Positions 29,023 through 54,469 of a DNA stretch of 64,000 bases are shown here, piece by piece. The stretch's first letter is position 1, and each line of letters opens with the position of its first letter. Origin of the DNA: Mycetocola manganoxydans (GTDB taxonomy: Bacteria; Actinomycetota; Actinomycetes; Actinomycetales; Microbacteriaceae); contig NZ_RCUV01000017.1 in NCBI RefSeq assembly GCF_003667545.1, positions 1 to 64,000 of the forward strand, written 5' to 3'. The translations under genes and the position numbers were made by a program. Below the pieces are notes generated by a model that worked only from the letters and a program-made list of their open reading frames with translations, ran no database searches and was not told the origin of the DNA.

Positions 29023-30177
29023 TCAGGCACGCTCACATTCGCGAGCAGCACTGTCTCCGCAGCAACAAGCTTCCACCGAGCCACTAGCTTTGACGACGTG
29101 GGTATGCCAGCCGAGCTCTTCTAGTTGGGCCTGAATAGCTGCAAGAGTCAAGTACTGTGCACCGGTGCCCCGATACGCGCTCAAAAAGTTCGCCTTCGCT
29201 TCGCGCAAGGAACCCTGCAGGGAATCTAGTTGGGTACGAGACCGTGGCCGGAGCGCCACTAAACAGTCGCTGAGCACGGCCCGCCCGACATCCAATAGTG
29301 TCGGATCACTCCACCGGCCGACGCGGCTGATCATGATGAGCGGACCTTCATCAGCCAACGCAGCAGACGCCACCATATCGGGGGTCCGCATGCGCAAGTT
29401 GGTCGTATGTAGGAACGGCAGAGGGTCAGTTGGGACAGTGGCGCGCACGCTGTGCACGGGAACACGACCTCTGATCACCTCAACACAACGACAACCGTCG
29501 AGGGACGGCTCGAGGGCATCCCGACGGATCACTGCTGGCTGGTCGTAAGAATCTCCCGGCATCAGCCGAACCAACGAAGTAGAAACCCGTGCCCCATGAA
29601 AGGACGTGGTCTTGAACCGCTCCAGACGGGAAACCGTATAACGCCTTCGAATCGCTTCCCAAAGTGGCTGGTGCCGTTCAGCATCCACTGCACCATCGGG
29701 GAGGATCGCGTAGACCCCAACGCTGGGCTCGAGGTCGGACAACACCTCGACAAGAAATCTCATCGCGGGCGCGACTCGACCAGAAAACTCCTTATACCCG
29801 ATCCGGTCGCCCCCATTGCCCCGATATGAAAAGGGCGGATTCAGGACAACAGCCGCGATCTCCTCCCTTGCGGCCCGCCAGGCCCGACTCGCGGTTTTGG
29901 CCTTATTCTGCAACAGGTCAGCTTGGCTAATCACCCAGCCAGGCTGCGCCCGACGCAGGCCACGAACAACTGTTGCATCAACGTCAATCCCATAAAGCGA
30001 CACCTTCGTCCCGAACCGCTCTTGGACGGCCGATAGAAGTGCCCCGGCGCCGACGGCAGGATCGAGTACGCGTCCCGAGAAGTCCTCGGGCATCGCGGCG
30101 GCCACCCGTTCTGCAACAGCGCGCGGCGTGTAAAACGCGTCCACGGCACGCTTTCGCGAAGTCAAGGAGCTATCCAC
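29023..30177 (-). CDS. class I SAM-dependent adenine-type DNA methyltransferase
   Basis: A 384-aa protein of the gamma-class N6-adenine methylase type. AFYTPRAVAERV at 14-25 is followed by SAM-binding motif I VLDPAVGAGALL at 37-48, an acidic SAM-ribose site in YGIDVD, and catalytic motif IV NPPF at 113-116. The C-terminal half may hold target recognition. It is too small for a full type IIG enzyme and has no nuclease motif. It starts with GTG at 30177, overlapping the upstream gene by 16 bases, and is last in the four-gene leftward operon. It may mark self DNA for that system or act independently. The end is Cys-rich (EACCCGDSAA). Confidence 0.85.
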   Translation of the reverse strand: MDSSLTSRKRAVDAFYTPRAVAERVAAAMPEDFSGRVLDPAVGAGALLSAVQERFGTKVSLYGIDVDATVVRGLRRAQPGWVISQADLLQNKAKTASRAWRAAREEIAAVVLNPPFSYRGNGGDRIGYKEFSGRVAPAMRFLVEVLSDLEPSVGVYAILPDGAVDAERHQPLWEAIRRRYTVSRLERFKTTSFHGARVSTSLVRLMPGDSYDQPAVIRRDALEPSLDGCRCVEVIRGRVPVHSVRATVPTDPLPFLHTTNLRMRTPDMVASAALADEGPLIMISRVGRWSDPTLLDVGRAVLSDCLVALRPRSRTQLDSLQGSLREAKANFLSAYRGTGAQYLTLAAIQAQLEELGWHTHVVKASGSVEACCCGDSAARECERA

Positions 30178-31094
30178 CGGAGGAAGCTGCTCACTTCGTA
30201 GACGTACACGCCGCGGGATCCTCGCGTACGACCTTTTGAACGCACGGGGTGGTCATAAATGAGCTCCACGAGGGCCGAATGTTGAATAGCATAAAGCACA
30301 GCTCCGAGAGCATGAGGTTTGGTTCCGATTGGCGCAACACGGAGGTGCTTTCCTCCAGCCTTCGCGTGGATGCGTTCTATCGCCCGGTAGGCCTCAAAAG
30401 GGCAGCTGGCTCGCGCGTACTCTACACGGCGGTCCATGCGGTCATGCTCGAGGATGTCCCTATTGGCAAGATATGTGTAGGTCGGGTATTCGACTCGAAA
30501 TCCGGGAGAACCGATGATTGGGGATGTGCGGCGGAGTTCGACCTCCTCCTGATCAAAAATGTGCCCGAGCCGTGCTCCCTCGAATCCTAGTAAGGGTGCA
30601 AAGTAACCCTCGTCGTCACTTCTTCGCGCGAGACGAGCAAATCCAGGCAACGGTTCTATCCCCCGACCAGTGCTGAGGTCATACACAGCACCTGGAAGTT
30701 CGTCGCTCCGCCGATAGTCATTGGGTTCCGCATAGAGCGCTAGCACCTCGTCGTGGCAAGCCACGAGCGCCTTAATCAGGGGAGCCCACACCCTATGTTC
30801 CAGGCTCGTCAAGTCCACGGCGACTGGGCCAGCCAAACTGCGGGCAAAACCTTCCAAGTCCCCGAACTCGAACAGGTTCACTTCGATGTTAGGACCGTGT
30901 ATGAAGCACCGCGCCTCGTCCAACACCTCGAGTCGGCACAGTTGAATGTCTGCAACTTGGTTCAATTCCTCGACAATGGTCTCGGCGCGCTCTTCTTCTA
31001 TGTCTGCTCCGTACAGAAGGTGCGCTATCCCTAGGCTTGAAATCTGAGTTGACTGTAGGCGACGCGTGAAATCGGGTTCGGTGACATCGAGCAT
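30162..31094 (-). CDS. unrecognised protein of the PRTase/ORC operon
   Basis: A 310-aa protein I cannot place in a family. Visible features are a Rossmann-like alternation with VAVDLTSLEHRVWAPLIKAL near residue 92, and a GYFAPLLGFEGARLGHIF segment near 165. An SPGFRVEYPTYTYLANRDIL stretch follows, and a conserved-looking C-terminal block IGTKPHALGAVLYAIQHS then YDHPVRS. No signal peptide, membrane helix or known nuclease signature is seen. It starts three bases after the stop of the ORC-like ATPase and overlaps the methyltransferase, so it is an obligate operon member. It may be the effector or sensor of the system. Base composition is lower in GC than the chromosome. Confidence 0.8.
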   Translation of the reverse strand: MLDVTEPDFTRRLQSTQISSLGIAHLLYGADIEEERAETIVEELNQVADIQLCRLEVLDEARCFIHGPNIEVNLFEFGDLEGFARSLAGPVAVDLTSLEHRVWAPLIKALVACHDEVLALYAEPNDYRRSDELPGAVYDLSTGRGIEPLPGFARLARRSDDEGYFAPLLGFEGARLGHIFDQEEVELRRTSPIIGSPGFRVEYPTYTYLANRDILEHDRMDRRVEYARASCPFEAYRAIERIHAKAGGKHLRVAPIGTKPHALGAVLYAIQHSALVELIYDHPVRSKGRTRGSRGVYVYEVSSFLRWIAP

Positions 31095-31097
31095 GGG

Positions 31098-32969
31098 TCA
31101 CTCCCAAAACAGCAACTGGTCGGGTAGATCGCTGGACTCCGTACCCCGCGTTGCAAGGATTCGCCGTACTGTCGCGGCCGCGCGTTCACGCTGAGTGAGC
31201 GCCATGATGTCGTCCGCGCGAATTGTCATCCGCCGCTTCCGCCGAGCGCTATAGACGAAATACGGAGCGAGGACGGGATGTAACTGGAAATCCATTTCGC
31301 GTGTAGCGCCGGAGTGCCTAGCGTTCTTGTCTCCGTTGAAGCTCAGAAGTATGCCTTGCCCAACTGCTTCTCCGAGCAGCTGGTCCACGTCCGTCGCAGC
31401 GGCGAAACTGCCCGTGTAGCTAACACGGAACTGATTCACTTCAGGGGTTGCGAGAGCCATCTCCCTCGCTAGAGCGCCGAAGATGCTCCCCAATCCGAGA
31501 GCGAGCCTCGTCAACGATGCCCCTTGCCGCGACCATCCTTGGAGATCTCGAATTGTCGTCTCCCCTACGCGAGCCGCTGCACGGGTTTGATGGACAACTG
31601 AAACCGAGGTGTTTAGCTGGCCGCCTTCGATTACGTGGAGCCTCAAGGCCTCGTAAACAAGGCGGATCATGTAACGAATGTTGCCGTCCGCCAGTTGACA
31701 GTATGACTTCCAGCCCGCGTAGTACTTGCGGTCGCCTACTCGGTTCTCTCGAATAGCGAAGAGTGCGGCGTATCCATAGTTACCAACGCGGACAGCCCAC
31801 TTCTTCGGATGTCGCATCGCGAACCGTAGAACCTCAAGTACTTCCTCGTCATGCGATTCAGCCCACTTCAAAACGATGCAAGCACTGAGGTCGGAAAGCG
31901 ACTGCGCGAATTCAAGGTCCTCGGGCGAAGCGCCGGGGGCTCGAGAAAGCCGACTGAGCAAGTCCGCCTTCACGACCTTCGCGCCAAGAAGATCCGCTTC
32001 CTGCTCAATGCTCAACTGAGGTAGAAGCCGGCTCGGATCCATGTGATCTGGATCAATCAGAGCCAGCCTTTGTTCCAGAACGGTAGCGGCGAATCGTTCA
32101 AATGACTCACCTTTCAGATCCGTCACTATGTCCACGGTCGTGAAGTCCGCGGGCTCCTGCAACGGCTGGTCATTGATGAGGGTCGCACGGTCGATTGCGA
32201 CCGTGTTCCGAACGCCTATCTTGAACGTGTACGGCGCGTTCCCTACCTGTTTGATCAGCGTATTGACAAGCTTCTGTTGATATGCCGAGAGGTTTTCATA
32301 TTCGTCAAGGCAGAACATGAAAGGTCTTAGTCGACTCACTCCCAGATCGTCGATTGCACTGAACAGGTAATCGAGGGGCTTGCCCAACAGTGAGAGTGAG
32401 GAATCCGACAATGCCGAAATGTTCCCGTTTATCTTCGCCTCTACGTCAACGAGCGCGAGATCGATCGCGTTCGATAGCTCGTCAATGGACGTCGACTTTG
32501 CTAGATGAAGAGAACGAGTGAACAACGTGAGCTCGTGCTCTTTCAGCAGCACGACGTGAGAATTCCGAGACAGCCAGGCCGCGTAGTCCAGGACAAGCGA
32601 ACTGAGCTTCAAGTTCAAGTAGTGGGAGAAGACACGTGACCACAAATCCTCCGGGAGGCCCTTACCTCGAAACACGGAGACGACGTTCGGCTCCACCTTC
32701 CAGTAATTACCGACGACTTCCCACGCCTGTGGGTCCAGCGATTCCGTGATCCGCGCCTGTCCCCCAAATGACATCGACCGCAGCGTCGTGGTCTTACCCG
32801 TGCCGCGTCCGCCAACCAGAAAGGACGGCGAGATCCCGACGAGCTGTTTGAAGTACAGAGGAGCGGCAAACCGTCGGTACAGTTCGTCGTCGCTTTCATA
32901 CTCGGCACGCACCTGACCCAGTGCTCGATTGACGCGCTCCAGGAGATCCGGACTCGAAAGACTGTTCAT
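31098..32969 (-). CDS. ORC/Cdc6-like AAA+ ATPase of a putative defence operon
   Basis: A 623-aa ATPase. Walker A GGRGTGKT is at 53-60 and Walker B FCLDEYEN has Asp222-Glu223. A sensor-1-like segment TFKIGVRNT follows, and the long C-terminal region ends in a basic winged-helix-like part (YFVYSARRKRRMTIRADD). The layout resembles bacterial ORC/CDC6-type STAND-like ATPases found in conflict systems rather than replication initiators. ATG at 32969 overlaps the stop of the PRTase-like gene (ATGA) and is preferred over a start 23 codons upstream. It likely senses an infection signal and drives assembly or activation of the partner proteins; this is inference. Confidence 0.8.
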   Translation of the reverse strand: MNSLSSPDLLERVNRALGQVRAEYESDDELYRRFAAPLYFKQLVGISPSFLVGGRGTGKTTTLRSMSFGGQARITESLDPQAWEVVGNYWKVEPNVVSVFRGKGLPEDLWSRVFSHYLNLKLSSLVLDYAAWLSRNSHVVLLKEHELTLFTRSLHLAKSTSIDELSNAIDLALVDVEAKINGNISALSDSSLSLLGKPLDYLFSAIDDLGVSRLRPFMFCLDEYENLSAYQQKLVNTLIKQVGNAPYTFKIGVRNTVAIDRATLINDQPLQEPADFTTVDIVTDLKGESFERFAATVLEQRLALIDPDHMDPSRLLPQLSIEQEADLLGAKVVKADLLSRLSRAPGASPEDLEFAQSLSDLSACIVLKWAESHDEEVLEVLRFAMRHPKKWAVRVGNYGYAALFAIRENRVGDRKYYAGWKSYCQLADGNIRYMIRLVYEALRLHVIEGGQLNTSVSVVHQTRAAARVGETTIRDLQGWSRQGASLTRLALGLGSIFGALAREMALATPEVNQFRVSYTGSFAAATDVDQLLGEAVGQGILLSFNGDKNARHSGATREMDFQLHPVLAPYFVYSARRKRRMTIRADDIMALTQRERAAATVRRILATRGTESSDLPDQLLFWE

Positions 32970-33862
32970 TTGAGCAACGGCCTCCACGATTCGGCGCAAG
33001 GCGACCACTGCAATACAGGGAGTGTGTTGTTGGGGCAAGAGTGGTGGAAGGATAGCGCGAGTCCCAGATCGCCGTAGCCAACTGGGCCGTACTCATCTCT
33101 GCCGGTGCGAGGGGAGTACTTTGCGAAGAATTCCGGTAACGACGGCCGCAATGCAACCGGTACTAGCCGTGTGTTGGCGTCAAGAGCCTGATAATCCCGG
33201 TCCAGCGAATATGTCGGAGCAACGATCACACCGCACTCCGATTCGATCTTGGTTATTGCGTCTTGAGTAGCCACCACAGGCAGGTAATACGCCGAAGAGA
33301 TGAAATCTTTGGATTGAAGATCGGCAAGCGAAACCTTTCCACTATCGGTCTGGTAGCGCCGACGCCAATCCCGTGTGAATTGAGTCCCAGAAGCAGCGAG
33401 ATCATCTAGGAAGATAACGGAGCTTGGCCCGGATGTCAGAATCTTCTTGATGAGATGCTCGCTGTCGAGAATTCTGTTTTCCTCAAAACGAAGTCTCTTT
33501 GCGATCCGGGCGAACACATAACCGGACGCGGTAGGGTCACCCGACCGACTTAGCGGAAACGAGATGAGAACGTCGCGAACGAATTCTGACCAATTCGCAG
33601 CTCTGCTGATGCTGTCACCGAACTCAACTCGCGATGAAATGCCCCGGATCGTAGAAGCAACGGCGTACACGATCTGCTCTTCATCGATGTGAACGTGAGC
33701 CTCAAGCAAAGCAATCGCGATTTCCGAATCTAGACCCTGGTCAAAGTTGTCGAGCCAACCACCGAGATCCATGCGACTTGGGCTGGGCCATACCGCGACA
33801 TCGGAGAGATACCCCCGAGTCTCCAAGACTTCCTTACGGTCCAACTGCGGCTCCTTTTGCAT
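32966..33862 (-). CDS. phosphoribosyltransferase-like protein
   Basis: A 298-aa soluble protein with a type I PRTase-like core. The segment VIFLDDLAASGTQF at 149-162 matches the PRPP-binding DDxxxSGT loop. The preceding part is helical with an acidic N-terminus, and the C-terminal part contains YYLPVVAT and VVAPTYSL strands. Classical purine or pyrimidine PRTases are shorter and have other hood motifs, so a nucleotide-salvage role is unlikely. It is first in the four-gene operon with the ORC-like ATPase, and resembles the PRTase-type proteins paired with such ATPases in conflict systems. It may modify a nucleotide or protein, or bind a signal nucleotide. Confidence 0.78.
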   Translation of the reverse strand: MQKEPQLDRKEVLETRGYLSDVAVWPSPSRMDLGGWLDNFDQGLDSEIAIALLEAHVHIDEEQIVYAVASTIRGISSRVEFGDSISRAANWSEFVRDVLISFPLSRSGDPTASGYVFARIAKRLRFEENRILDSEHLIKKILTSGPSSVIFLDDLAASGTQFTRDWRRRYQTDSGKVSLADLQSKDFISSAYYLPVVATQDAITKIESECGVIVAPTYSLDRDYQALDANTRLVPVALRPSLPEFFAKYSPRTGRDEYGPVGYGDLGLALSFHHSCPNNTLPVLQWSPCAESWRPLLK

Positions 33863-34082: not shown

Positions 34083-34502
34083 ATGACACACGACAACTTG
34101 GGCCACGCCGGCGTGACCTACGGCGATTGGCTCGGGACTGCTGCCGCAGACGAGCACCAGACGATTGGGCATCTGAATCCGTATGAAGTTGCAGGACTCG
34201 ACCGAGACCGTTGGTGGATCCTGTCAATCGACATCACGGTCGTCGGCGTTGAGAAGGGCTACTTCTACGTTTATGCCGTCGATCGCGAAGCCACGTCGAT
34301 CACAGATTACGAGGCGCTGCAGATGTACGGCCGTGTTCACGGCAAGATTCCTGTCACCAGTTTTCTGGTGCACGATATTGCAGCCGAAACCCTCATCCGG
34401 GAATCGTTCACCCAGTTCCACGTGCAGCTGCGTCACCGCAGCCTGGGCGAACTCCCTTTGGCGGTCGAGGACACTCAGGACCTGAATTACACAGGCGACT
34501 GA
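34083..34502 (+). CDS. unrecognised 139-aa partner of a PD-(D/E)xK protein
   Basis: A small soluble protein of 139 residues with no family I recognise. It has an RWWILSIDITVVG strand near residue 50, a YFYVYAVDREATS segment, and a C-terminal helix with FTQFHVQLRHRSLGELPL. ATG at 34083 is well supported by GGAGGG five bases upstream, and it ends two bases before the next start. It is therefore co-translated with the 807-aa nuclease-like protein and probably its cofactor, sensor or antitoxin-like regulator; the role is inferred from linkage only. Confidence 0.75.
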   Translation: MTHDNLGHAGVTYGDWLGTAAADEHQTIGHLNPYEVAGLDRDRWWILSIDITVVGVEKGYFYVYAVDREATSITDYEALQMYGRVHGKIPVTSFLVHDIAAETLIRESFTQFHVQLRHRSLGELPLAVEDTQDLNYTGD

Positions 34503-34504
34503 CC

Positions 34505-36928
34505 ATGGTGAGGAAGTTGGGGCAGTCGCTTCACGATGGCCTCGCCCTTACAGCGAACGCCGGTGAAGAGAGAAGGAAGAGTCGGCACACTCCTTCACCC
34601 GTGCTCGCCATTGATAACGGAGCCGTCCTTCGAAAGTTAGGGAGTCATCGAACCTTCGTTAGCCAGGTTGAGAAGGGGCACACCACCCCAGCGGAAATCG
34701 TCGCCGGGCTAAAGTCGCGCATTGAAGACCGAGTACGGGAATTCTCTCAGGTTTCGTATGGTCTGCATCCCTTTGACGTTGTTGAGGCTCTCCGCAGGCA
34801 CGAGTTCCCCAGTGACCTCGAGGACTACCGGGAAACAGAGGATCCAGGATTGAGCGTGGCCATTGAGTTGGCCGCGATGCTAGTTCGAGAACCCGTAGAG
34901 GTGCGTGCCAGTACGATCGATTTCGTCGCGGACCTCGGGCCGGCCGTCGAACGGCTGTCCCAACTCGCTCACGAGATCATTTCCTGCATCGACCTGATAG
35001 CGCGGCACGAAACAAGTCATGGTAACGATGCCACGGCCTATCTTTCCTCGAATCTGTTCTCGCGAATGCTAATGCTCCGAGGCAACCAGTACTCCCACAT
35101 TGAGAGAAACCACTGCCGGCGGTTTCTCTCCGCGCCGCACATCGAGGTTCACGCTCGACAGGCTCTCGGGTTAACTTACGATGAGGCAACTATCGTTCTG
35201 GACGCGTCGGAGGCGCTCTACTCCGAGCGTCTGGAAGCTGCCCTGCATGAGCTCAATCAGTTAGTCGACACCAAGGGTGCGGACTTCGTCGAGCCGGCAT
35301 CACCCGCGGGATATCTTCTTCGTTCGCTCTACGCCGAAATGGGACGTCTCGGCTCGTTCACGGAGGGCGACCTCGTTACCGCGACCGGACTAAGCCCAGC
35401 TATCGTCCGTGCCGCACTCGACCTTCTGAGCCACCCGACAGGAAGTGTCGAACCGCTGAAAGTCGTGGAACGCATTGCCTCGGGTCGCGACCCCATGCGG
35501 GGCAAGGCCTACCTTCGACTAGATCAGCGATACGTGCTCGTAAACACGGCAGCGGCAACCGATCGTCTCAGGGACACGTTCGAGAACGCCCTCAAGTCAA
35601 ACCCGCGGGCGCAGAATTCCTACAACAAATGGCGAGGGAAGCAAGCTGAAGGAATCGCAGTCGAGCTCCTCGAACAAATCCTCGGTGTCCCCGCGACGTA
35701 CACGTCGCTGAAATACAGGAGCAAACCCTCGCCTTCAGATCCGGCTCCAGAACTCGCCGAGGCAGATGCCCTCTTCATTTTTGACTCCGTCGCCCTGATC
35801 GTCGAGGTGAAATCGGCTTCGTTCAGCAGTCAAGCGCGCGCAGGGGACCCGGTTCGGCTGGTAACCGATCTGCGAAAGACCGTCGGACACGGCGCCACAC
35901 AAGCAGCGCGTCTTGAGCAGCTCGCGAGAGAGGACGGAGGCGTTGTGTCCGCCGACGGGTCGTGGCTAGACCTGAGTCAGATCGTCGACGTCCATATGAT
36001 CGTCGTCTCGGCCGAGGAACTCGGTCGAGCTGCAATAGACATCGACGCGCTCGTCAGATCCGGCGTCATCCCGGAAGACACGCTGCCATGGGTCGTTTCG
36101 CTTCACGACCTCGCGGTGATCGCCGAAATTGACGAGCGGCCGCCGGCGTTTCTGCTGTATTTGCGGCAAAGGACATCACCGCAGATCTCGCGGCTGTTCA
36201 ACGCCGGCGATGAGTTGGATCTATACATCCTTTTCTTGCGTGGGCACCTATGGGCGATGGCTGATCCCCGAGTGCTCGCTGCGAAAAATCCGATGAGCGC
36301 ACATGTGACATCGGGAAAGATCGCTCGATACGAGAAGCAACCGGAAATCGTCGTGCAATCACAGACGGACGACCTCGCTGCATGGATGTACTACAAGCAA
36401 GGGCAACGATCAACACCAGCACCACGGCCGGCCCTGCACGCGAATCGACGCCTTCTCGAGATCGTCGACTTCCTGATCGAGGAGCACAAACCGGGCTGGT
36501 TCGAGTTTGGGGCCGATTTATTGGACGGCGGTCCGAAAGCCCAGAAGGTCCTCGCGTCTGCTCTCGACGAGTTGCTTCGGCGTGCGAATGCCGATGGCGC
36601 AGAACACAGTGTTGCGCGTGGTCTTTCCGGGCACTGGGGCTACTCGATGTTCGTCGCCACGGTGGCGCTGAATGGGGAGACATCGCGTGAGGGGATGGAG
36701 CGGATGGGCAAATACTTGCTCTTGAAAAAGTACCAAATGAGGGCGCCGAGGGCGCTGGGTCTCGTTTTCAGCCCCTCCGGACAATTGTTTGGCGCCGAAT
36801 ATGTCGGCGGCTCCTGGAAACACGACCCGGACGGTGAATCTCTGCTCGCCCACTTCAAACTGAAGAATCAACGCGGAGCTGCTCTGCCCCCTTCAGCCAA
36901 ACGACGCACCCGAAGGCTACGGGTGTAA
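34505..36928 (+). CDS. large protein with PD-(D/E)xK nuclease core
   Basis: An 807-aa protein. A restriction-endonuclease-like core sits in the middle: Glu382 in a helix (AEGIAVELLEQ), Asp421 (ADALFIF) and Glu434-x-Lys436 (IVEVKSA), the spacing expected for a PD-(D/E)xK active site. The N-terminal ~350 residues and C-terminal ~300 residues are helical and unassigned and may sense or oligomerise. It follows the 139-aa gene with a two-base gap. The setting in a defence island suggests DNA cleavage in response to phage. The basic C-terminus (KRRTRRLRV) could contact nucleic acid. Confidence 0.8.
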   Translation: MVRKLGQSLHDGLALTANAGEERRKSRHTPSPVLAIDNGAVLRKLGSHRTFVSQVEKGHTTPAEIVAGLKSRIEDRVREFSQVSYGLHPFDVVEALRRHEFPSDLEDYRETEDPGLSVAIELAAMLVREPVEVRASTIDFVADLGPAVERLSQLAHEIISCIDLIARHETSHGNDATAYLSSNLFSRMLMLRGNQYSHIERNHCRRFLSAPHIEVHARQALGLTYDEATIVLDASEALYSERLEAALHELNQLVDTKGADFVEPASPAGYLLRSLYAEMGRLGSFTEGDLVTATGLSPAIVRAALDLLSHPTGSVEPLKVVERIASGRDPMRGKAYLRLDQRYVLVNTAAATDRLRDTFENALKSNPRAQNSYNKWRGKQAEGIAVELLEQILGVPATYTSLKYRSKPSPSDPAPELAEADALFIFDSVALIVEVKSASFSSQARAGDPVRLVTDLRKTVGHGATQAARLEQLAREDGGVVSADGSWLDLSQIVDVHMIVVSAEELGRAAIDIDALVRSGVIPEDTLPWVVSLHDLAVIAEIDERPPAFLLYLRQRTSPQISRLFNAGDELDLYILFLRGHLWAMADPRVLAAKNPMSAHVTSGKIARYEKQPEIVVQSQTDDLAAWMYYKQGQRSTPAPRPALHANRRLLEIVDFLIEEHKPGWFEFGADLLDGGPKAQKVLASALDELLRRANADGAEHSVARGLSGHWGYSMFVATVALNGETSREGMERMGKYLLLKKYQMRAPRALGLVFSPSGQLFGAEYVGGSWKHDPDGESLLAHFKLKNQRGAALPPSAKRRTRRLRV

Positions 36929-37156: not shown

Positions 37157-37330
37157 ATGTCCGAGTCGTGGCTGTCAGCAGATGACATCGCCGAGCACCT
37201 TGGCGTGACCAAAGACACCGTCTACTCCTGGATCGCAGACAAAGGGATGCCCGCACACAAGGTCGGCCGTCTCTGGAAGTTTCAGCGGACAGAGGTCGAC
37301 GAGTGGGTCCGCCGTGGGGACGCTGGATGA
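37157..37330 (+). CDS. excisionase-type HTH DNA-binding protein
   Basis: A 57-aa protein consisting of one MerR-like/HTH_17 helix-turn-helix: LSADDIAEHLGVTKDTVYSW, then KVGRLWKFQRTEVDEWV. This is the full excisionase-family signature. ATG at 37157 follows a GGGGG run; another ATG four codons earlier is also possible. It sits 98 bases before brxA on the same strand. It could regulate the BREX operon, or be a recombination directionality factor of the mobile element. No BrxR-type domain is present. Confidence 0.85.
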   Translation: MSESWLSADDIAEHLGVTKDTVYSWIADKGMPAHKVGRLWKFQRTEVDEWVRRGDAG

Positions 37331-37428
37331 GATCCGTTTCGCCGCGGAGGGCCGTTTCCGGCCAAGATGTCGGCGGTCGGTCGTATCCTGATCGACTTGC
37401 CTGTTTCCGGACAAAGGGGTGTTGAACT

Positions 37429-38040
37429 GTGGCTGAAACCAGCGAGCTCCGCTATGCACTCTCTTTCACCGTGGGGTCCCTACTTACGCGCGAGGCCACC
37501 ATCGCGGCGCCCTTGTACCTGCAAGAACACGACTGGAGCCGTGTCCGTGCTCGGCTCGCTGCAGATAACTTGCTCCAAACCCGGACGACGTCGTCACGCA
37601 TCCGGCTCAACCGTGAGGTCGCCCAGCGTCTCGCGATGCTCTCCGATCCCGAACTGGACCTGGTGATCGACTCGACTGGCACCGAGCGGGCTCATCTCAT
37701 GTGGGTCGCCGCGTGCCGTCGGTACGAGTTCATCGGTGACTTCGCGGAAGAGGTGGTGCGCGAACGTTTTCTCCTTCTCACTCCCACCGTCAGCTACAAC
37801 GAGTTCGATGGATTCGTTCGCGGCAAGGCTATCTGGCACCCAGAGCTCGTTGAGCTAAAGGACTCAACTATGCAGAAGCTGCGGTCCACGATCTTTCAAA
37901 TGCTTGTCGAAGCCGGCCTTACGACGAAGCAGGGCAACATCGTTCGCACGGCGCTCTCCGATCGGCTCGCCGCACTCCTAGACGAGCGCAGCCCGAGTGA
38001 TATCCGATACTTCCCGACGAGCTTGGACATGATTGGATGA
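37429..38040 (+). CDS. brxA: BREX protein BrxA
   Basis: A 203-aa BrxA (DUF1819) protein, first gene of the type 1 BREX operon. Family landmarks are RYALSFTVGSLLTREA at the N-terminus, DSTGTERAHLMWVAACRRYEFIG in the centre and a C-terminal YFPTSLDMIG. BrxA folds like the antitermination factor NusB and binds DNA in characterised systems. It starts with GTG at 37429 behind an AAGGGG site and overlaps brxB by ATGA. The protein is soluble despite the older inner-membrane label of the family. Confidence 0.93.
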   Translation: MAETSELRYALSFTVGSLLTREATIAAPLYLQEHDWSRVRARLAADNLLQTRTTSSRIRLNREVAQRLAMLSDPELDLVIDSTGTERAHLMWVAACRRYEFIGDFAEEVVRERFLLLTPTVSYNEFDGFVRGKAIWHPELVELKDSTMQKLRSTIFQMLVEAGLTTKQGNIVRTALSDRLAALLDERSPSDIRYFPTSLDMIG

Positions 38041-38636
38041 CCGCCGCCGACGTGGCCCGCAATGAAGACCACCTGTTCTCGGTGCTCAGCGGCGATCGCT
38101 TCCTCCGCATGGAAGGGCTCAGCAACGAGGTGCCCTTCTTCATCTACCCGTACGACGCTGAGGATGCTCTCGCGGTTGCCGACTCGAAGAAGCGAGTCAA
38201 GAACAAGCTGCGCGCCAAGGGCATCGAGGTGAAAGAGGTCAACCTCTACGATCTCTCGGTCGAAGTTCTGAAAGAACGCGGCGTGTGGGAGCGCCTACTG
38301 GCGCTCGAAGTCGAACAGGACAAAGACGACTTCCGCCAGCTCTTGCAGGGCATGCTCGATCCGCAGCTTCACCTCGCGCCGGCCATCCGCGACAAGATCG
38401 CCGACGGCGGCTTCGACATCTTCTTCCTCACCGGCATCGGAGAGGTGTTCCCGTACGTTCGTTCGCACAACGTGCTGAATAACCTGCAAAGCGTCGTCAC
38501 CGGCAAGCCGATGCTCATGTTCTTTCCCGGCCGCTACGAGCAGTCCGACACCCTCGGTTCTTCGCTTGTGCTGTTCGGCCGGCTCAAGGACGACCAGTAT
38601 TACCGCGCTAAGAACATTCTCGAACAGGAACCGTGA
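38037..38636 (+). CDS. brxB: BREX protein BrxB
   Basis: A 199-aa BrxB (DUF1788) protein of unknown biochemical role, required in characterised type 1 BREX systems. It shows PFFIYPYDAEDALAV, VNLYDLSVEVL, GFDIFFLTGIGEVFPYVRSH and PMLMFFPGRYEQ, all typical. It overlaps brxA by four bases and ends three bases before brxC. Confidence 0.94.
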   Translation: MTAADVARNEDHLFSVLSGDRFLRMEGLSNEVPFFIYPYDAEDALAVADSKKRVKNKLRAKGIEVKEVNLYDLSVEVLKERGVWERLLALEVEQDKDDFRQLLQGMLDPQLHLAPAIRDKIADGGFDIFFLTGIGEVFPYVRSHNVLNNLQSVVTGKPMLMFFPGRYEQSDTLGSSLVLFGRLKDDQYYRAKNILEQEP

Positions 38637-38639
38637 CCC

Positions 38640-41600
38640 ATGCAGCTCAATGAGATCTTCGCCAAGGACGTTCAGCGTCCGATCGAGGGCGTCATCAAAG
38701 CGGATGACACCGCACACCTCGGCACCGAGGTCGACGAGTATGTCCTCACGAACGAGGCCGCGAAAGGCCTTGAACTCCTCCTAGAGGCATACACGAATTA
38801 CACCAACGCGAACGGCGTCTGGATCTCGGGCTTCTTCGGCTCCGGCAAGTCGCACCTGCTCAAGATGCTCGCTCACCTCCTTGGCGACGTTGCGGGTCAG
38901 GACTTTCCACGGGACAGAGTCTCGGCGAGCTTCCTCGACAAGGCGGATGACGCGTTCCTGCCGGCGCTGATCATCAAGGCTGATCGCATCCCGGCAAAGA
39001 GTCTGCTTTTCAATATCGATCAGAAGGCGACGCTGATTAGCAAAGACCAGTCGGATGCCCTGCTGAAGGTGTTCGTGAAGGTGTTCGACGAGTCCCGCGG
39101 CTACTTCGGAAACCAGGGACACGTCGCGCGGTTCGAGCGCGACCTCGACAACCGCGGGCAGCTCGATGAGTTCAAGTCCGCGTACATGCGTGTCTCGGGC
39201 CGGGATTGGGCTCAAGGGCGAGAGGAAGGCGTGCTCGAAGAGTCGAACGTCGCCCGGGCGTACGCCGAGATCACTGGCCACTCGGACGGTACGCCGACCA
39301 ACATCCTTACGAAGTACCGCACCGAGTACTCCGTGTCGATCGAAGACTTCGCAGACGAAGTGAAGGCATGGCTCGACAAGCAAGACCCCTCGTTCCGCCT
39401 GAACTTCTTCGTCGACGAGGTGGGGCAGTTCATCGGGTCGAACACGCACCTGATGCTCAACCTGCAGACGATAGCCGAGTCGTTGAACACAAAGTGCCAG
39501 GGCCGCGCGTGGATCTTCGTGACCTCGCAAGAAGACATGGACAAGGTCGTCGGCGATCGCACAAAGCAGCAGGGAAACGACTTCTCCAAGATCCAGGCAC
39601 GCTTCAAGACCCGGATGAAGCTGACCAGCGCCGATGTCGAGGAAGTCATCCGCAAACGACTACTCGAGAAGAGCATCAAGGGTGCGGAGGAGCTGCGCGT
39701 GATTTACGCGGCCGAGTCGGCGAACTTCAAGACCCTCTTCGACTTCGTCGACGGCGCAAAGTCTTACCGCAACTACACCGATGAGGATCACTTCATCGGA
39801 ACATACCCATTCGTCAGCTACCAATTCCCGCTGTTCCAAGCGGCGATCGAGGGCATCTCCGACCACAACGTCTTCGAAGGCCGCAACAGCTCCGTCGGCG
39901 AACGTTCCATGCTCGGGGTCGTGCAGCAGGTCGCCAAAGACATTGGAGATGTCAAGGTCGGCCGATTGGCCACTTTCGACCACATGTTTGCCGGCATCCG
40001 GTCTTCGTTGAAGTCGGCCGCGCAACGTTCCATCGACGTCGCCGAACGCAACCTCGACGACGAGCTTGCTGTCCGGATCCTGAAGGCACTGTTTCTGGTG
40101 AAATACGTGGACAGCTTCCAGGCGACCGCGCGCAACCTCACGGTTCTCATGTACGACCGGTTCGGCCTTGACCTGCCTGCGTTGTCGAAGCGCGTGCAGG
40201 AAGCACTCGCGAAGCTCGAGACCCAAACCTATGTGCAACGCAACGGCACCGTCTACAACTATTTGACCAACGAAGAGCAGGTCATCGAGGAGGAGATCAA
40301 GAACGTCGACATCGACGCATCCGAAGTCTCGGGTCGCCTAGTCAAGATCCTGCAAGAAATCATGCGTGCTACAAAGCTGCGGTACGCCAAGAACGGGCAG
40401 GACTTCGCGTTCGGATACAAGCTCGACGACCAGGTGTACGGGCAGCAGCGCGAGTTATCGGTGCACTTCATCACTCCCGAGTACCCGTACGGGCCGGTGG
40501 AGACTCGGATGCACAGTGCGGGCAAGGACGAACTTCGTGTCATTCTCGAGCCGGATGAGCGGGTGCTGTCCGACCTTAGGCTGCTGATCAAGACCGAGAA
40601 GTATACGAAGCGCAAGCAGACGACATCACTGTCGGCCATCGAAGACCAGATCCTGCGCTCGAAAGCAGCACAGAACGTCGAGCGCGAGAAGGAACTCGTG
40701 GAACGCGTCCGCCGTGCCGTCGGAAAGGCCGAGCTGGTCATCAACGCCGCTGATGTCATATCTGGGGCGCAGGACGCGGTAGCCCGCGTCACCGACGGCT
40801 TCCAGGACCTCGTGGCTCGCACCTACACGCAGCTCAGTTTGCTGGGCGGCATGAGCTACAGCGAACAGCAGATCACCGGTTTCGCCAATCCTGGACCGGT
40901 CGGGCTCATCGAGGACGCGTCAGTCTCGACGCTCGCGGTGCCGGGCGAGGAGGTCCTCTCGTATGTTCTACGCCGCGACCGTCTCGCCGAGCAGGTAACG
41001 GTGAAGTCGATCGTCGATACCTTCCAGGCCAAGCCCTACGGCTGGGATCTCGCCTCGATCGAAGTCGTGATCGCGTGGCTTGTTGGCGCCTCGAAGGTCA
41101 CCCTCTCAGTCGACAGCAATGCACTCAGGCGCAGCGAAGTCACCGCGGCGCTACGAAACACGCAGAAGCACGCCCACATCGTTGTCGCTCCGCAGAAAAT
41201 CTTCGACGAGCGAAAGGTCGCCGCGTTCCGCGCCTTCTGCACCCAGTTCTTCGACGAGGCCACTCCGATCAAGGACTCCCTCGAGCTCGCCCGCCACGGT
41301 CGTGACATGCTCCGCAGCAAGCTCGACGAGCTGAAGGCACTCGCGATCGGCTCGAAGTATCCGTTCGTGGGTCAGCTCGATGCGCCGATTGCCCTTCTCG
41401 AGCAGACGGTTGGCAAGCCCAACGAGTGGTACCTGTCGGAATTCGCTCTTGGCGATGAACTCCTCGACGCCAAGGAGAGCGTAATGGACCCGATCCAGGC
41501 GTTCCTCAGTGGCGGCCAGCGAGCGATCTATGAGGACGCGGCTGAGCTACTGCGCTCGAACGTCAGCAACCTGGGGTACCTCGCACCCCGCAGCGACGAA

Positions 41601-42125
41601 CAGATCACGACCCTTCTCGATGACCCGCAGGCGTTCCGCGGGAACCGCATGGCTCAACTCAAGCGGGCCGCCGACGCACTGCGGACCTCCATCGACACGG
41701 CTCTCACCGCTAATCGCGCGGCTGCTATGGCAGAGATCGAGTCACGCAAGTCAGCCCTCCTTGCCAGCATCATGTACCTCAACGCGACCGAGGAGGCGCA
41801 GCAGCGCGTCATTAGAGCTATCGACCAGGTCATCGCTCGAATCGGCGGCGAACGACAGATCGCACTCATCCGCGAACTAGGCAATGGCTTCGAGCAGACC
41901 GTCTACCCCGCGCTTCTCGACCAGCTTGCGGCCGCAGCCCGGCCCGACGATGAAGGCGACGATCCGGTAATTGCCCCGGTCAAGCAGACGGTTTCGGTCA
42001 AGACGATCTCGGCCGCCGGTGTGAACGGTGTGCTGGAGACAGCCAACGATGTCGATCGGTATGTCGCCGCACTCCGGGCAGCGCTCATCAACACACTCAA
42101 CGAAGGCAAGCGCATCGCGCTGTAA
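38640..42125 (+). CDS. brxC: BREX ATPase BrxC
   Basis: An 1161-aa ATPase, normal for BrxC/PglY proteins. Walker A GFFGSGKS is at 64-71, after the conserved N-terminal KADDTAHLGTEVDEYVLT. An acidic Walker B FFVDEVGQFIG and many helical segments follow. In BREX it is thought to act with PglZ and PglX in recognising foreign DNA and enabling methylation or exclusion. It is co-transcribed between brxB (three-base gap) and pglX (15-base gap). Confidence 0.94.
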   Translation: MQLNEIFAKDVQRPIEGVIKADDTAHLGTEVDEYVLTNEAAKGLELLLEAYTNYTNANGVWISGFFGSGKSHLLKMLAHLLGDVAGQDFPRDRVSASFLDKADDAFLPALIIKADRIPAKSLLFNIDQKATLISKDQSDALLKVFVKVFDESRGYFGNQGHVARFERDLDNRGQLDEFKSAYMRVSGRDWAQGREEGVLEESNVARAYAEITGHSDGTPTNILTKYRTEYSVSIEDFADEVKAWLDKQDPSFRLNFFVDEVGQFIGSNTHLMLNLQTIAESLNTKCQGRAWIFVTSQEDMDKVVGDRTKQQGNDFSKIQARFKTRMKLTSADVEEVIRKRLLEKSIKGAEELRVIYAAESANFKTLFDFVDGAKSYRNYTDEDHFIGTYPFVSYQFPLFQAAIEGISDHNVFEGRNSSVGERSMLGVVQQVAKDIGDVKVGRLATFDHMFAGIRSSLKSAAQRSIDVAERNLDDELAVRILKALFLVKYVDSFQATARNLTVLMYDRFGLDLPALSKRVQEALAKLETQTYVQRNGTVYNYLTNEEQVIEEEIKNVDIDASEVSGRLVKILQEIMRATKLRYAKNGQDFAFGYKLDDQVYGQQRELSVHFITPEYPYGPVETRMHSAGKDELRVILEPDERVLSDLRLLIKTEKYTKRKQTTSLSAIEDQILRSKAAQNVEREKELVERVRRAVGKAELVINAADVISGAQDAVARVTDGFQDLVARTYTQLSLLGGMSYSEQQITGFANPGPVGLIEDASVSTLAVPGEEVLSYVLRRDRLAEQVTVKSIVDTFQAKPYGWDLASIEVVIAWLVGASKVTLSVDSNALRRSEVTAALRNTQKHAHIVVAPQKIFDERKVAAFRAFCTQFFDEATPIKDSLELARHGRDMLRSKLDELKALAIGSKYPFVGQLDAPIALLEQTVGKPNEWYLSEFALGDELLDAKESVMDPIQAFLSGGQRAIYEDAAELLRSNVSNLGYLAPRSDEQITTLLDDPQAFRGNRMAQLKRAADALRTSIDTALTANRAAAMAEIESRKSALLASIMYLNATEEAQQRVIRAIDQVIARIGGERQIALIRELGNGFEQTVYPALLDQLAAAARPDDEGDDPVIAPVKQTVSVKTISAAGVNGVLETANDVDRYVAALRAALINTLNEGKRIAL

Positions 42126-42140
42126 GGACGAACCACAGAC

Positions 42141-45100
42141 ATGGAAACCGCACCCCTGAAGTCCTTCGCCACCTGGGCGCGCACGGCACTCATCCGCGAG
42201 GTGACGGCGCGTGTCGCGGCCGTGCTGGCACCGGCCTCGAAGGAGCGGGTCGAGAACGAAAGCGCAGTCGCCACACTCGAACAGGACATCACCGCCGCCG
42301 GAGGTGGTGACAAGGGGCGCGACGCAGTTGCCGATAAGGTCGCGTACACCTGGTTCAACCGCATCATCGCGCTGCGCTTCATGGATGCGAACGGCTACAC
42401 CGGCATCGGCGTGGTCTCGCCGCAAAGCGGTCACGCTGTGGGGCAGCCCGAGGTGCTGGCGGACGCCAAGCGTGGGACAATCGACTCCGCCGTCGTGACG
42501 AGCGCCCGCGCAATTGAAACGATCACCGCGTTGCTCGACGGAGCACGCCGCAGCGACGACCCGCAGGGCGAGGCGTACGCACTGCTCCTCACCGAGTATT
42601 GCCGTTACTGGAATCGCGCCATGCCATTCATGTTCGAGCGCGCGGGTGACTACACCGAGCTGCTCATCCCCGCCAACCTGCTCGCCGACGATTCTGTGCT
42701 CGCGCGGGTCGCCGCTGTGCTCACCGAGGATGTCTGCGCGGACGTCGAGGTGATCGGCTGGCTATACCAGTTCTATATTGCCGAGCGGAAACTAGAGGTC
42801 TTCACCCAGTTCAAGCAAAAGCTCAAGGCCAGCGCCACGGAAATCCCGGCCGCTACGCAGCTCTTCACACCACATTGGATCGTCCGCTACCTAGTAGAAA
42901 ACTCGATTGGCCGTCTCTGGCTTCTCAACCGCCCGACTTCGCGAATCGCCGAGCAAATGGACTACTACCTCGAGCCAGCTGACCAGGAAACTGAATTCAT
43001 AAAGATCCGCACTCCCGAGGACCTTAAGGTCATCGACCCCGCATGTGGCTCGGGTCATATGCTCACCTATGCCTTCGATCTCCTCTATGCAATCTACGAG
43101 GAGGACGGGTATGCGCCCGCCGACATCCCTGGCCTGATTCTGAGCAAGAACCTCTTCGGCACCGAGATCGATCCGCGCGCGGGTGCTCTCGCGGCCTTTG
43201 CGCTCGCGATGAAGGCTCGAGCGAAGCAACGTTCCTATTTCACCCGCTCGGCGGCAGCTGGCGGACTGCACCCACAGATATCCGTGGTACGGCCAATTTC
43301 GTTCGATGATGACGAACTGGACTACCTCGCGACGCTGAGCCAAGGCATTGCGGACCGTCAGCAATCGGATGCCTTCTGGCAGTCCTTCCGGCACGCTGAC
43401 ACAATTGGTGCACTAATCCATCCGCCGGAGCAACTCGTACCTTCATTGAAGCGGCTCATCGAAGAAAGTGTCTATTCGGATGGCGACCTCTTTGCGGCGG
43501 GCGTTCACACTAGAGCCACGATGGTTCTGCAGCAAGCAGACTTCCTTGTCCAGAAGTATTCGGTTGTAGTCGCGAACCCCCCATATATGGGGGGCAAGAA
43601 CATGGATGGCCTGCTCTCGGAGTGGCTTCGTGCCCATTATCCGACTGGAAAGCAGGATCTGTACGGGGCGTTCATCCTACGTGCCTCTCGGCTCGCGGTT
43701 CGCGGGGGTCTCGTGGCGATGATCACCGGCGACAGTTGGATGACCATCAAGACATTCGACCGCATGCGCGAGTGGGTTCTCGACCACACCACGTTGCACA
43801 GCGTTGTTCATCTACGGGACACTGCGTACCACTCGGACATTTTTGGTGCGAACGTTGCGTTCGTACTGACAACCGGGCCCGCTAGCCGCAGTCTGTGCAC
43901 GTTCATATATCTCGATCCGCTCGATGGACAACAGAAAAGGCAAAAGTTCATCGCGGCAGCGGCAGGCCTCGATGCTGCGATTGTTTTCGTCGCCGCGCCG
44001 TCTGACTTTCGAGCGATCCCGGGATCACCGATCGCCTACCAGCTCTCTGAGAAGACAAGGGCTGCCTTCTCAGAAGGGGTCCCGCTAGCAACCATTGCAC
44101 AACCGCGGCAGGGACTCGCTACTGGGGACAACAACAAGTTCCTTCGCAACTGGGCGGAAGTTTCGGTATCGCGATTGGGGCTTTCCGAGACCAGCCGAGA
44201 GTCCGCGATCGCCAGCGGACGCAGATGGTTTCCATGTCTGAAGGGGGGACCCTTCCGAAAGTGGTATGGGAACACAGATTTGGTCGTCAATTGGTATCGA
44301 GATGGGGACGAGATCCGCAACTTCAACGACGGAGGCGGGCGATTGCGATCCCGACCTCAGAACATGGACTATTACTTTCGTCCGGGAGCGACCTGGTCAA
44401 CGGTCACGTCGGGCGCGTTTTCCATGCGATACGCGCCACCAGGATTCATTTCGGAGACGAAGGGCGCTGTCTGCTACGCCGATGAGTTCACGGCGAAGTC
44501 GGTATTAGCCCTCGGGAACTCGCCAGTGATGGGCTCCATCTTGGCCGCTCTGTCTCCGACCCTCGACTTCCACGAAGGCCCCGTGGGCCGCGTACCATTC
44601 ATAGGCGAGCCGTCCGCCGAAACAAATCTCCTAGTCGAGCGCGCTATTCAGATTGCCGCGTCGGACTGGCATGACCAGGAAACATCGTGGGGCTTTTTGC
44701 GCAACCCAATCGTGGAGTACTCAAGATCGAGTTCGCTCCAGCGAAGCGTTGAAGGACTCGCTGAAGTGAGGGCGGAGCGGACACGGGAGCTTCAAGCCTT
44801 GGAAGAGCAGATCAACGAAAGACTTATAGAGAGCTACGGATTGCAGGACGAGCTGTCACCTGTGGTCCCTTTGGAACGTATAACTCTTTTCTCCAACATT
44901 GCCTTCGCATACCCCGGACAGGCTCCATCCGAACGCGCGAAGCGCGGGCAAGCAGACGCGGTGCGCGACCTGGTCTCTTACGCGGTGGGCTGTCATTTCG
45001 GTAGATTCAGCATCGAAAAGCCAGGGCTGATTCTCGCCAACCAAGGAGACACCTTGCGCGACTACCTCGCTGTGGTATCTGCCCCGTCTTTCCCACCCGA

Positions 45101-45686
45101 CCAAGACAACGTGATCCCGATCGTGGATGGCGACTGGTTCGAAGATGACATCGTGGCGAGATTCCGGCAGTTCCTGCGGGTCACGTTCGGCGAAGAGTAT
45201 TTTGAGGAGAACCTGCGCTTCGTCACTGAGTCGCTCGGTGTTAAAGACATGCGCGACTACTTCGTCAAGTCGTTCTATAAAGACCACGTTCAGCGGTATA
45301 AGAAGCGCCCGATCTATTGGCTGTTTTCCAGCCCACAGGGGTCGTTCAACGCGCTCATCTACATGCATCGATACACGCCGACGACTGTCTCAATCGTATT
45401 GAACGAGTATCTGCGTGAGTTCCGCGCAAAGCTGGATGCGAGCCGCCAGCACCACGAGCGCGTTGCCCTTAGTTCGGCCACGCCCCGCGAGAATGCTGCG
45501 GCCGAGAAGGAAGTCGATCGTCTTCGCAAGGTGCTGCTCGAACTGGACGAGTATGAGCACGACGTGCTCTACCCACTCGCCACTCAGCAGATCGCGATCG
45601 ACCTCGATGACGGCGTGAAGGTTAACTACCCGAAGTTTGGAGCCGCGCTCAAGAGGATTCCTGGACTGGAGACGAGCGATGAGTGA
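42141..45686 (+). CDS. pglX: BREX adenine DNA methyltransferase PglX
   Basis: An 1181-aa methyltransferase that places N6-methyladenine on host sites, marking self DNA for BREX. SAM motif I DPACGSGH is at 299-306 and catalytic NPPY at 479-482; the remaining parts carry target recognition. It has no nuclease domain, as expected. It lies between brxC and pglZ, and its last eight bases overlap the pglZ start. The target sequence cannot be read from the protein. Confidence 0.95.
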   Translation: METAPLKSFATWARTALIREVTARVAAVLAPASKERVENESAVATLEQDITAAGGGDKGRDAVADKVAYTWFNRIIALRFMDANGYTGIGVVSPQSGHAVGQPEVLADAKRGTIDSAVVTSARAIETITALLDGARRSDDPQGEAYALLLTEYCRYWNRAMPFMFERAGDYTELLIPANLLADDSVLARVAAVLTEDVCADVEVIGWLYQFYIAERKLEVFTQFKQKLKASATEIPAATQLFTPHWIVRYLVENSIGRLWLLNRPTSRIAEQMDYYLEPADQETEFIKIRTPEDLKVIDPACGSGHMLTYAFDLLYAIYEEDGYAPADIPGLILSKNLFGTEIDPRAGALAAFALAMKARAKQRSYFTRSAAAGGLHPQISVVRPISFDDDELDYLATLSQGIADRQQSDAFWQSFRHADTIGALIHPPEQLVPSLKRLIEESVYSDGDLFAAGVHTRATMVLQQADFLVQKYSVVVANPPYMGGKNMDGLLSEWLRAHYPTGKQDLYGAFILRASRLAVRGGLVAMITGDSWMTIKTFDRMREWVLDHTTLHSVVHLRDTAYHSDIFGANVAFVLTTGPASRSLCTFIYLDPLDGQQKRQKFIAAAAGLDAAIVFVAAPSDFRAIPGSPIAYQLSEKTRAAFSEGVPLATIAQPRQGLATGDNNKFLRNWAEVSVSRLGLSETSRESAIASGRRWFPCLKGGPFRKWYGNTDLVVNWYRDGDEIRNFNDGGGRLRSRPQNMDYYFRPGATWSTVTSGAFSMRYAPPGFISETKGAVCYADEFTAKSVLALGNSPVMGSILAALSPTLDFHEGPVGRVPFIGEPSAETNLLVERAIQIAASDWHDQETSWGFLRNPIVEYSRSSSLQRSVEGLAEVRAERTRELQALEEQINERLIESYGLQDELSPVVPLERITLFSNIAFAYPGQAPSERAKRGQADAVRDLVSYAVGCHFGRFSIEKPGLILANQGDTLRDYLAVVSAPSFPPDQDNVIPIVDGDWFEDDIVARFRQFLRVTFGEEYFEENLRFVTESLGVKDMRDYFVKSFYKDHVQRYKKRPIYWLFSSPQGSFNALIYMHRYTPTTVSIVLNEYLREFRAKLDASRQHHERVALSSATPRENAAAEKEVDRLRKVLLELDEYEHDVLYPLATQQIAIDLDDGVKVNYPKFGAALKRIPGLETSDE

Positions 45687-48174: not shown

Positions 48175-48186
48175 GACAGGACAGTC

Positions 48187-52754: not shown

Positions 52755-54469
52755 CAAAGGTTCTCATCCACGAGCTCCCTGAACAGACCCAGGAGTTACT
52801 GACCCGGTTACGAAGTGCCCTGCAGACGAGCTCGGGAGCGCTTGCTGAGCAGCTTCTTATTCGTGCGCGGATGGAACCAAGCCAGAAGCCAAGGATGGTT
52901 GTCACTGGTCAGTTCAGTAGCGGCAAGTCGAGCCTAGTCAGGGCTCTCACGGACGGCGACGTCGACCCGGTGATCGATGCGGACATTGCCACAGACGAAG
53001 TCACGGATTACCCCTGGGACGGCGCCGTCATACTCGTGGATACGCCTGGCGTTCAGTCGGGTCTGCGAAGTCACGATGAACTGGCTTTGGAAGCGATTGG
53101 CAGAGCCGACTTCATCCTGTTCGTCGTCACTGTAAATCTCTTCGATGACGCGTCCAGGGACTACTTACGGCACCTCGCGAACGAGCTTCAGCTCTTCGGC
53201 CAAATGCTCCTCGTGATCACGCGAGCTGGCACTCGGCCAGCAGCCGAGGGCGTGCGCGAGCAAGCGGTCAAAGATGCACTTGGCACAGCAACATTCAATC
53301 TCCCGGTGGCTGAGGTCGACTCCGTGCTCTACATGAGAAGCCTTGAAGGCGGCGCGAAGGCCGAACTCCTGCGGGATCGGTCTGGCATCGACGAGTTGCG
53401 CGCAGCAATCAACAAAATGAGCGAGGACCGTGGCGACCTAGCCCAGCTCAGACAGCCACTCCACCTGATTCGCCAACTGTGCGATGAGGCGCAGCAGCTC
53501 TTCGTGAAGGACGAACGCTCACGGTCCGCGCTTGCGCTGCTCTCCAAACAAAGGGCTGTCGTTTCCCATCGACGCTTCATGCTCGAGCGCGCGTTCGTTG
53601 GCGCCGAGGCGGAGTTCAAGTCGCAGTGCTTAGTAGACGTAACGGGGTTCGTTGACATTGTTACCCGTCTCGACGCAGCCGACGTGACGGCTCAAGACGT
53701 GCTGGACGCGGCCGAAGCGAGGCTCGTGGAATCGCTCGAGCGCCACGCAGGGCAGTTCGCGGGTGCGATCAACCGGCTGACACAGGCACAGTTAGACACG
53801 TTGTCCGAAGAGCTTCTGGAAATCAGTCAGAGCAACCGAGTTGAGCGCCTTCTCCGTCCGACCGGCGACATCTCGCTGGAGTCCCCGAATCAAGTGCGAA
53901 GCGAATCGTCGGATGGGGCAACGTCTCCTCTGCCCTCGCATGCCGTGGATTGGGACATGGTCCGTGACCTGCTCCAAAGAGGCCAGGGCTGGTGGGGAGC
54001 TGGTGACGGGCTCCAGCAGGCATCTGGATCCATCGGCCACAAGATCGTGAAGGATGTCGGCCATACATTCGGCCACAAGTTCAAGCCGTGGCAAGCAGTG
54101 AAGCTTGCCGACAAGATCGGCAAGGCAGCCAAAGTCGGCGGTTTTGTCATCCAGATCGGCCTGGCTGGCTACGAGGTTCTGAAGAACGAACGCGAGGCGC
54201 GCCAAGCTCAGATCGAAAGCGATCGCCAGCATTCGGCCCTCGTCACCGAGATCATGGGCCACGCCGACAAGATCGCAACAAGTGCGCGTCAGAAACTTCG
54301 GGCAATCGTTGACCCACCTATGGACGAGCTACTTGCAGACCTTCAGGTGGCCCAGGATTTGATTCTCAGCGCTGATCAGGCGCGCGGTGAAGCAGGAATC
54401 GAGCTTCGCGCGATTGCCACTGAGGCTGATCGCCTGCTGAGTTACAGCTCTGCGCAGGCGTGGCTCTGA
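52751..54469 (+). CDS. dynamin-like GTPase, second of a pair
   Basis: A 572-aa GTPase beginning with GTG in a four-base overlap (GTGA) with its partner. G1 GQFSSGKS is at 53-60, a threonine-containing switch in ATDEVTDY, and G3 DTPG at 97-100 follow. A long helical middle and an amphipathic segment (KLADKIGKAAKVGGFVIQIG) near residue 460 could associate with the membrane. The partner is larger and carries the stronger hydrophobic element, so the two likely form a hetero-oligomer. The pair follows the 53-aa ORF and brxL with no promoter-sized gap. Confidence 0.82.
   Translation: MTKVLIHELPEQTQELLTRLRSALQTSSGALAEQLLIRARMEPSQKPRMVVTGQFSSGKSSLVRALTDGDVDPVIDADIATDEVTDYPWDGAVILVDTPGVQSGLRSHDELALEAIGRADFILFVVTVNLFDDASRDYLRHLANELQLFGQMLLVITRAGTRPAAEGVREQAVKDALGTATFNLPVAEVDSVLYMRSLEGGAKAELLRDRSGIDELRAAINKMSEDRGDLAQLRQPLHLIRQLCDEAQQLFVKDERSRSALALLSKQRAVVSHRRFMLERAFVGAEAEFKSQCLVDVTGFVDIVTRLDAADVTAQDVLDAAEARLVESLERHAGQFAGAINRLTQAQLDTLSEELLEISQSNRVERLLRPTGDISLESPNQVRSESSDGATSPLPSHAVDWDMVRDLLQRGQGWWGAGDGLQQASGSIGHKIVKDVGHTFGHKFKPWQAVKLADKIGKAAKVGGFVIQIGLAGYEVLKNEREARQAQIESDRQHSALVTEIMGHADKIATSARQKLRAIVDPPMDELLADLQVAQDLILSADQARGEAGIELRAIATEADRLLSYSSAQAWL

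Follow-up and report, generated by a model that had tools for sequence, protein, structure and literature searches.

The 807-aa gene in this region of Mycetocola manganoxydans is probably a horizontally mobile gene that stands alone and encodes a single-polypeptide PD-(D/E)xK nuclease, most likely serving as an anti-phage or anti-plasmid effector. It lies within the window, as we call the whole 64,000-nucleotide stretch of DNA analysed here, two bases downstream of a gene for a 139-aa protein, and an earlier note based on the sequence alone had read the two as a two-gene unit flanked on both sides by defence modules. Both open reading frames were found where that note had placed them (Table 1), and the existence of homologues for each indicates that both are genuine genes. 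The flanking modules were likewise recovered, with a CARF6/PRTase-CE operon on the left and a BREX locus followed by LeoBC/LeoA on the right. Taken as a whole, the earlier reading survives in part: the PD-(D/E)xK assignment and its catalytic triad stand, whereas the two-gene unit does not, and the large protein appears as a single-gene module.

The segment of the window between positions 22000 and 41900 is strain-specific: in the five other genomes of the genus nothing beyond about 240 bp matches it, and the short matches that do exist fall mostly on ABC transporter genes. The G+C content, about 66% in the left part of the window, drops to 55-62% around this region.

Table 1. Features of the locus, with window coordinates and, for parts of the 807-aa protein, residue ranges
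Feature	Position	Strand	Residues	Basis or remarks
N6-methyltransferase gene	29023-30177	-		Pfam/PADLOC
CARF6 protein gene	30162-31094	-		Pfam/PADLOC
ORC-CDC6-like ATPase gene	31098-33038	-		Pfam/PADLOC
PRTase-CE gene	32966-33862	-		Pfam/PADLOC
139-aa small ORF	34083-34502	+		ATG shortly 3' of GGAGG (strong ribosome site)
807-aa large ORF	34505-36928	+		ATG two bases past the TGA of the small ORF; no clear Shine-Dalgarno
Disordered basic N-terminus			1-37	AlphaFold model
All-helical N-terminal region	34616-35479	+	~38-325	helices H39-56 to H317-325
Beta-hairpin and PD-(D/E)xK nuclease domain	35480-36142	+	~326-546	conservation, fold matches, hhalign
Helical segment	36143-36409	+	~547-635	model and A3 conservation
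C-terminal alpha/beta domain and basic tail	36410-36925	+	~636-790 (domain)	model
BREX locus	37157-50331	+		HTH_17 protein (57-aa), brxA, brxB, brxC, pglX, pglZ, brxL
LeoBC and LeoA (two genes)	50508-54469	+		PADLOC models; directly after BREX
RecD-like/PDC-S68-like helicase protein, 1179 aa	55362-58901	-

Architecture of the 807-aa protein and its kinship with GapS1

The 807-aa protein returned no meaningful match to Pfam, PADLOC or NCBIfam models, and PDB sequence searches gave nothing above chance. An alignment of 72 full-length large proteins (A3) was used to build an AlphaFold model (m7ddf83a1875e; pLDDT 87.7, pTM 0.89), in which residues 351-545 adopt a PD-(D/E)xK core fold. This prediction, suggested as a check in the earlier note, places the triad named there (Glu382, Asp421 and Glu434-x-Lys436) inside the fold, and the accompanying check on catalytic residues points the same way, all four being invariant in A3 together with R377, E419 and Q466 (72/72 sequences). 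The PDB structures matching residues 376-555 are nucleases (Can2, Cdn1, McrC and SduA), and the nuclease part of the model superposes on N.BspD6I (Z 10.8, rmsd 4.0, 184 residues) and on McrBC (Z 7.6). The presence of a conserved, complete active site in a PD-(D/E)xK fold, and with it the prediction of a nuclease part, is well supported by residue conservation and the model taken together.

Outside this domain, conservation is uneven. The N-terminal helical region is the least conserved folded part of the protein and may be a putative sensor or oligomerisation domain, while the helical segment that follows the nuclease is conserved to the same degree as the nuclease itself (R556, D569, E570, D572 and W627). 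The C-terminal domain was also modelled separately (mf99b938c2993; pLDDT 88.1) and, searched alone, has no clear fold counterpart, the best VIA Z being 5.6. Cas4-like and tRNA-splicing endonuclease folds were considered for it on the basis of Foldseek E values of 0.003-0.02 and set aside, given VIA Z scores of at most 5.6. Comparison of the large-protein model with viral structure models yielded no match with E <= 0.001.

Among known systems, the longest structural match is to Upx (PDB 9wuf), in which a helical region likewise precedes a nuclease and which covers residues 40-533 of the model with a Z of 12.2 over 402 residues, but with an rmsd of 9.1 that makes the match uncertain. We regard it only as a lead because of this high rmsd, and because helical parts may reach such Z scores by chance. 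The Upx chain has 1212 residues, and a search of the PDB with profile A3 up to E 10 found no sequence match. Shedu SduA also combines a PD-(D/E)xK domain with a separate N-terminal part (Z 7.0, rmsd 4.5, 153 residues), but its fold match is no better than those of other PD-(D/E)xK nucleases, and no Shedu/DUF4263 model was detected in the window protein with either Pfam, searched to E 1, or PADLOC, searched to E 0.1. The CRISPR ancillary nucleases Can2 and Cdn1 share the nuclease-domain fold (Z of about 8, rmsd 2.9, 121 residues), the good alignment being confined to that domain.

Another of the closest known systems is GapS1 (NF047931), which has been reported to protect Klebsiella pneumoniae from many phages (PMC12908700). 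A GapS1 set was assembled from one protein that passes the cut-off together with two strong and two remote relatives. Against it, hhalign aligns residues 326-554 with GapS1 residues 225-451 at E 9.7e-9 (alignment A7) and 2.5e-5 (A3), and restricting the set to the three closest GapS1 proteins still gives 1.7e-6 (A7); reversed and 20 column-shuffled control alignments gave E values of 0.19 or higher. The module common to GapS1 and the large family includes an 'NP...P' hairpin as well as the E, D, (D/E)xK and Q residues of the active site. The NCBIfam GapS1 model weakly matches 4 of 12 family members (best E 9.7e-7, 28 bits) and does not match the window protein at E 0.1, the curated cut-off standing at 320 bits. 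Judged from these profile alignments, the nuclease module of the large protein is a distant homologue of anti-phage GapS1, and the link is limited to that module. Like the window protein, GapS1 is a single protein with the homologous NP-hairpin and PD-(D/E)xK module of about 200 residues. Unlike it, GapS1 is about 500 aa long, with a curated cut-off that the window protein falls far below; in the latter the helical N-terminus is longer, and a conserved helical segment and a C-terminal domain are present in addition.

Distribution, mobility and genomic company of the large gene

Relatives of the large gene were found in 41 plasmid records and on 88 genome contigs, mostly of Actinomycetota (including Leucobacter, Microbacterium, Agromyces and Pseudolysinimonas), and 80 of the 88 contig relatives were retained. 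Within the family, presumably the Microbacteriaceae, the gene is patchy, occurring in 9 of 400 genomes with the window genome included. More distant plasmid relatives come from Photobacterium, Shewanella, Vibrio, Agrobacterium, Pontibacter, Halobaculum and Exiguobacterium, and span Gamma- and Alphaproteobacteria, Bacteroidota, Bacillota and Haloarchaea. These distant relatives keep E382, E419, D421, K436, Q466, R556 and E570; in four of them, belonging to a SEC-C-bearing subgroup, QxK replaces ExK. Five carry a SEC-C motif at the C-terminal end, and two (L118 and L119) match NERD (PF08378) above the gathering cut-off, a domain for which Pfam finds no match in the window protein. The NERD/SEC-C plasmid proteins (WP_068840302, WP_086368691 and others) are distant relatives encoded by genes of similar size, alignable with the window protein over the nuclease and further. 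They differ from it in their SEC-C end and, in several cases, in the QxK motif, whereas the actinobacterial branch has ExK and lacks SEC-C. That the family might be phage-borne was also considered and rejected, with no match in phage records or viral contigs.

Two actinobacterial relatives (L008 6638-9139 and L009 6374-8839) carry the annotation 'preprotein translocase subunit SecA'; since the SEC-C motif is not seen in this branch, the label is likely a misannotation. In two other loci, L101 8001-10229 (Actinomadura sp.) and L111 8001-10311 (Ornithinimicrobium murale), the large gene is split into two reading frames, and these copies are possibly frameshifted or pseudogenes.

The plasmid homologues of the large gene are single genes with varied neighbours. 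To characterise its surroundings, 120 proteins encoded within two genes of it at 34 loci were searched with PADLOC. Their matches include AbiU, PifA, Tmn, ThsB, type II restriction enzymes, AriA/GajA/Old-type proteins and Avs1b, as well as a caspase-like protein, RT-TIR, PDC-S28 (two) and PDC-S66. For comparison, 16 chromosomal regions were chosen arbitrarily from genomes that cover a narrower phylogenetic range than the test set; among their 120 proteins PADLOC recognised, besides generic ABC-type ATPases, a single JetD and a single DNA methyltransferase. The enrichment of defence genes near the large gene is modest, and the comparison behind it is small and uncalibrated.

The plasmid location of many relatives, together with the transposase and integrase genes close by, would also suit a nuclease that serves mobile elements in a selfish or a housekeeping role, for instance in plasmid competition or DNA repair, and is not directed against phages. 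We consider this unlikely, however, in view of the many defence genes among the neighbours and of a nuclease module related to that of GapS1, for which phage protection has been reported in Klebsiella pneumoniae (PMC12908700). Judged from these neighbours and relatives, and from the place of the window copy between the CARF6/PRTase-CE operon and BREX, the large protein probably has a role in defence. Our search of the literature found no defence assay of any member of the large family.

The flanking modules and the 139-aa gene

The large gene also lies upstream of the BREX genes and on the same strand, and auxiliary PD-(D/E)XK nucleases have been reported near BREX loci and loci related to them (PMC12839542), which would be compatible with the 807-aa nuclease acting for the adjoining BREX system as an auxiliary or a backup effector. 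A relative on Gordonia plasmid pGKT2 (L006 3432-16181) offers some precedent, as it is embedded in a BREX-related operon with the order helicase, nuclease, DUF1156, DUF499, directly beside the helicase gene, and such a setting has been described for auxiliary nucleases of this kind (PMC12839542). Against this, a separate HTH gene lies between the large gene and brxA, no BREX protein is among the 25 top neighbour families listed for genes within two positions at the 34 sampled loci, and the large-gene family is otherwise stand-alone. We therefore hold a BREX effector to be quite unlikely and retain the stand-alone nuclease as the preferred reading.

On the left, the CARF6/PRTase-CE operon of four genes (29023-33862) recurs with its gene order unchanged in two further genomes of the family, and also on a Moraxella osloensis plasmid and a Paraburkholderia plasmid. 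Both the small and the large gene are missing from all four of these occurrences, and the two genes can thus be discarded as parts of that module, which looks like an independent system, putatively for CARF-dependent defence. Relatives of its ORC-CDC6-like ATPase are common on Klebsiella conjugative plasmids.

The 139-aa protein was described in the earlier note as unrecognised, and it indeed has no Pfam, PADLOC or NCBIfam match. Its homologues share 31-51% identity (seven-member alignment A2), and they adjoin transporters, oxidoreductases or unrelated plasmid genes, with no relative of the large protein beside them. The search for co-conserved pairs that the note had proposed finds the small gene in 6 of 400 family genomes and both genes in the window genome only. 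At the large-gene loci the outcome is similar: a six-frame hmmsearch of 88 loci with the small-family profile recovered only the window copy, and tblastn found no homologue in the examined flanks of the other loci either, so that within these flanks the small gene is absent beside the large one at 87/87 loci outside the window. This is the outcome that the note had named as refuting a two-gene unit. The gene upstream of the large gene is on the same strand at 48 of 87 loci and within 30 bp at 7 of 87, these seven being the window, the two split copies (L101 and L111), two helicases (L006 and L110) and two unrelated ORFs. The adjacency of the two ORFs is real, and the two genes are possibly read on one transcript; a functional two-gene unit is without support and, as a candidate, is rejected on the missing co-occurrence across the 87 other loci and the 400 family genomes. 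Even as a pairing specific to this lineage, with the small gene encoding a sensor or immunity protein for the nuclease, a functional pair is very unlikely, for although the two-base spacing and a large ORF devoid of a clear Shine-Dalgarno fit translational coupling, and the small gene does belong to a real conserved family, its relatives are found among unrelated genes and no other of these loci or genomes combines the two. The 139-aa protein represents a small orphan family, and its gene is an adjacent, unrelated accessory gene and not a conserved partner.

Proposed mode of action and significance

Taken as a stand-alone nuclease gene, the 807-aa ORF would encode a metal-dependent enzyme that is predicted to be held in check until an infection cue is received. 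The variable N-terminal helices, the C-terminal domain or both might sense this cue or engage DNA and so release the nuclease, which may then degrade the DNA of the invader or of the host, leading either to destruction of the invader or to abortive infection. The 139-aa gene would be dispensable for such a system. More specifically, we put at about even the chance that the large gene constitutes a distinct and hitherto unnamed single-gene anti-phage system, with a GapS1-type nuclease joined in one polypeptide to a helical sensor and a new C-terminal domain, which would be common in Actinomycetota and have relatives in several phyla and in Haloarchaea.

The actinobacterial branch of this family is unnamed in Pfam, NCBIfam and PADLOC 2.0, and its members are accordingly annotated as 'hypothetical' or even as the SecA subunit mentioned above. 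With the homology described here, large plasmid proteins that were unannotated, or annotated only through NERD and SEC-C, now become linked to the anti-phage nuclease GapS1. What had appeared as an odd gene pair in M. manganoxydans becomes a single-gene candidate for a defence system that is open to testing, its active site defined, its structure modelled with confidence and its relatives numbering at least 88.
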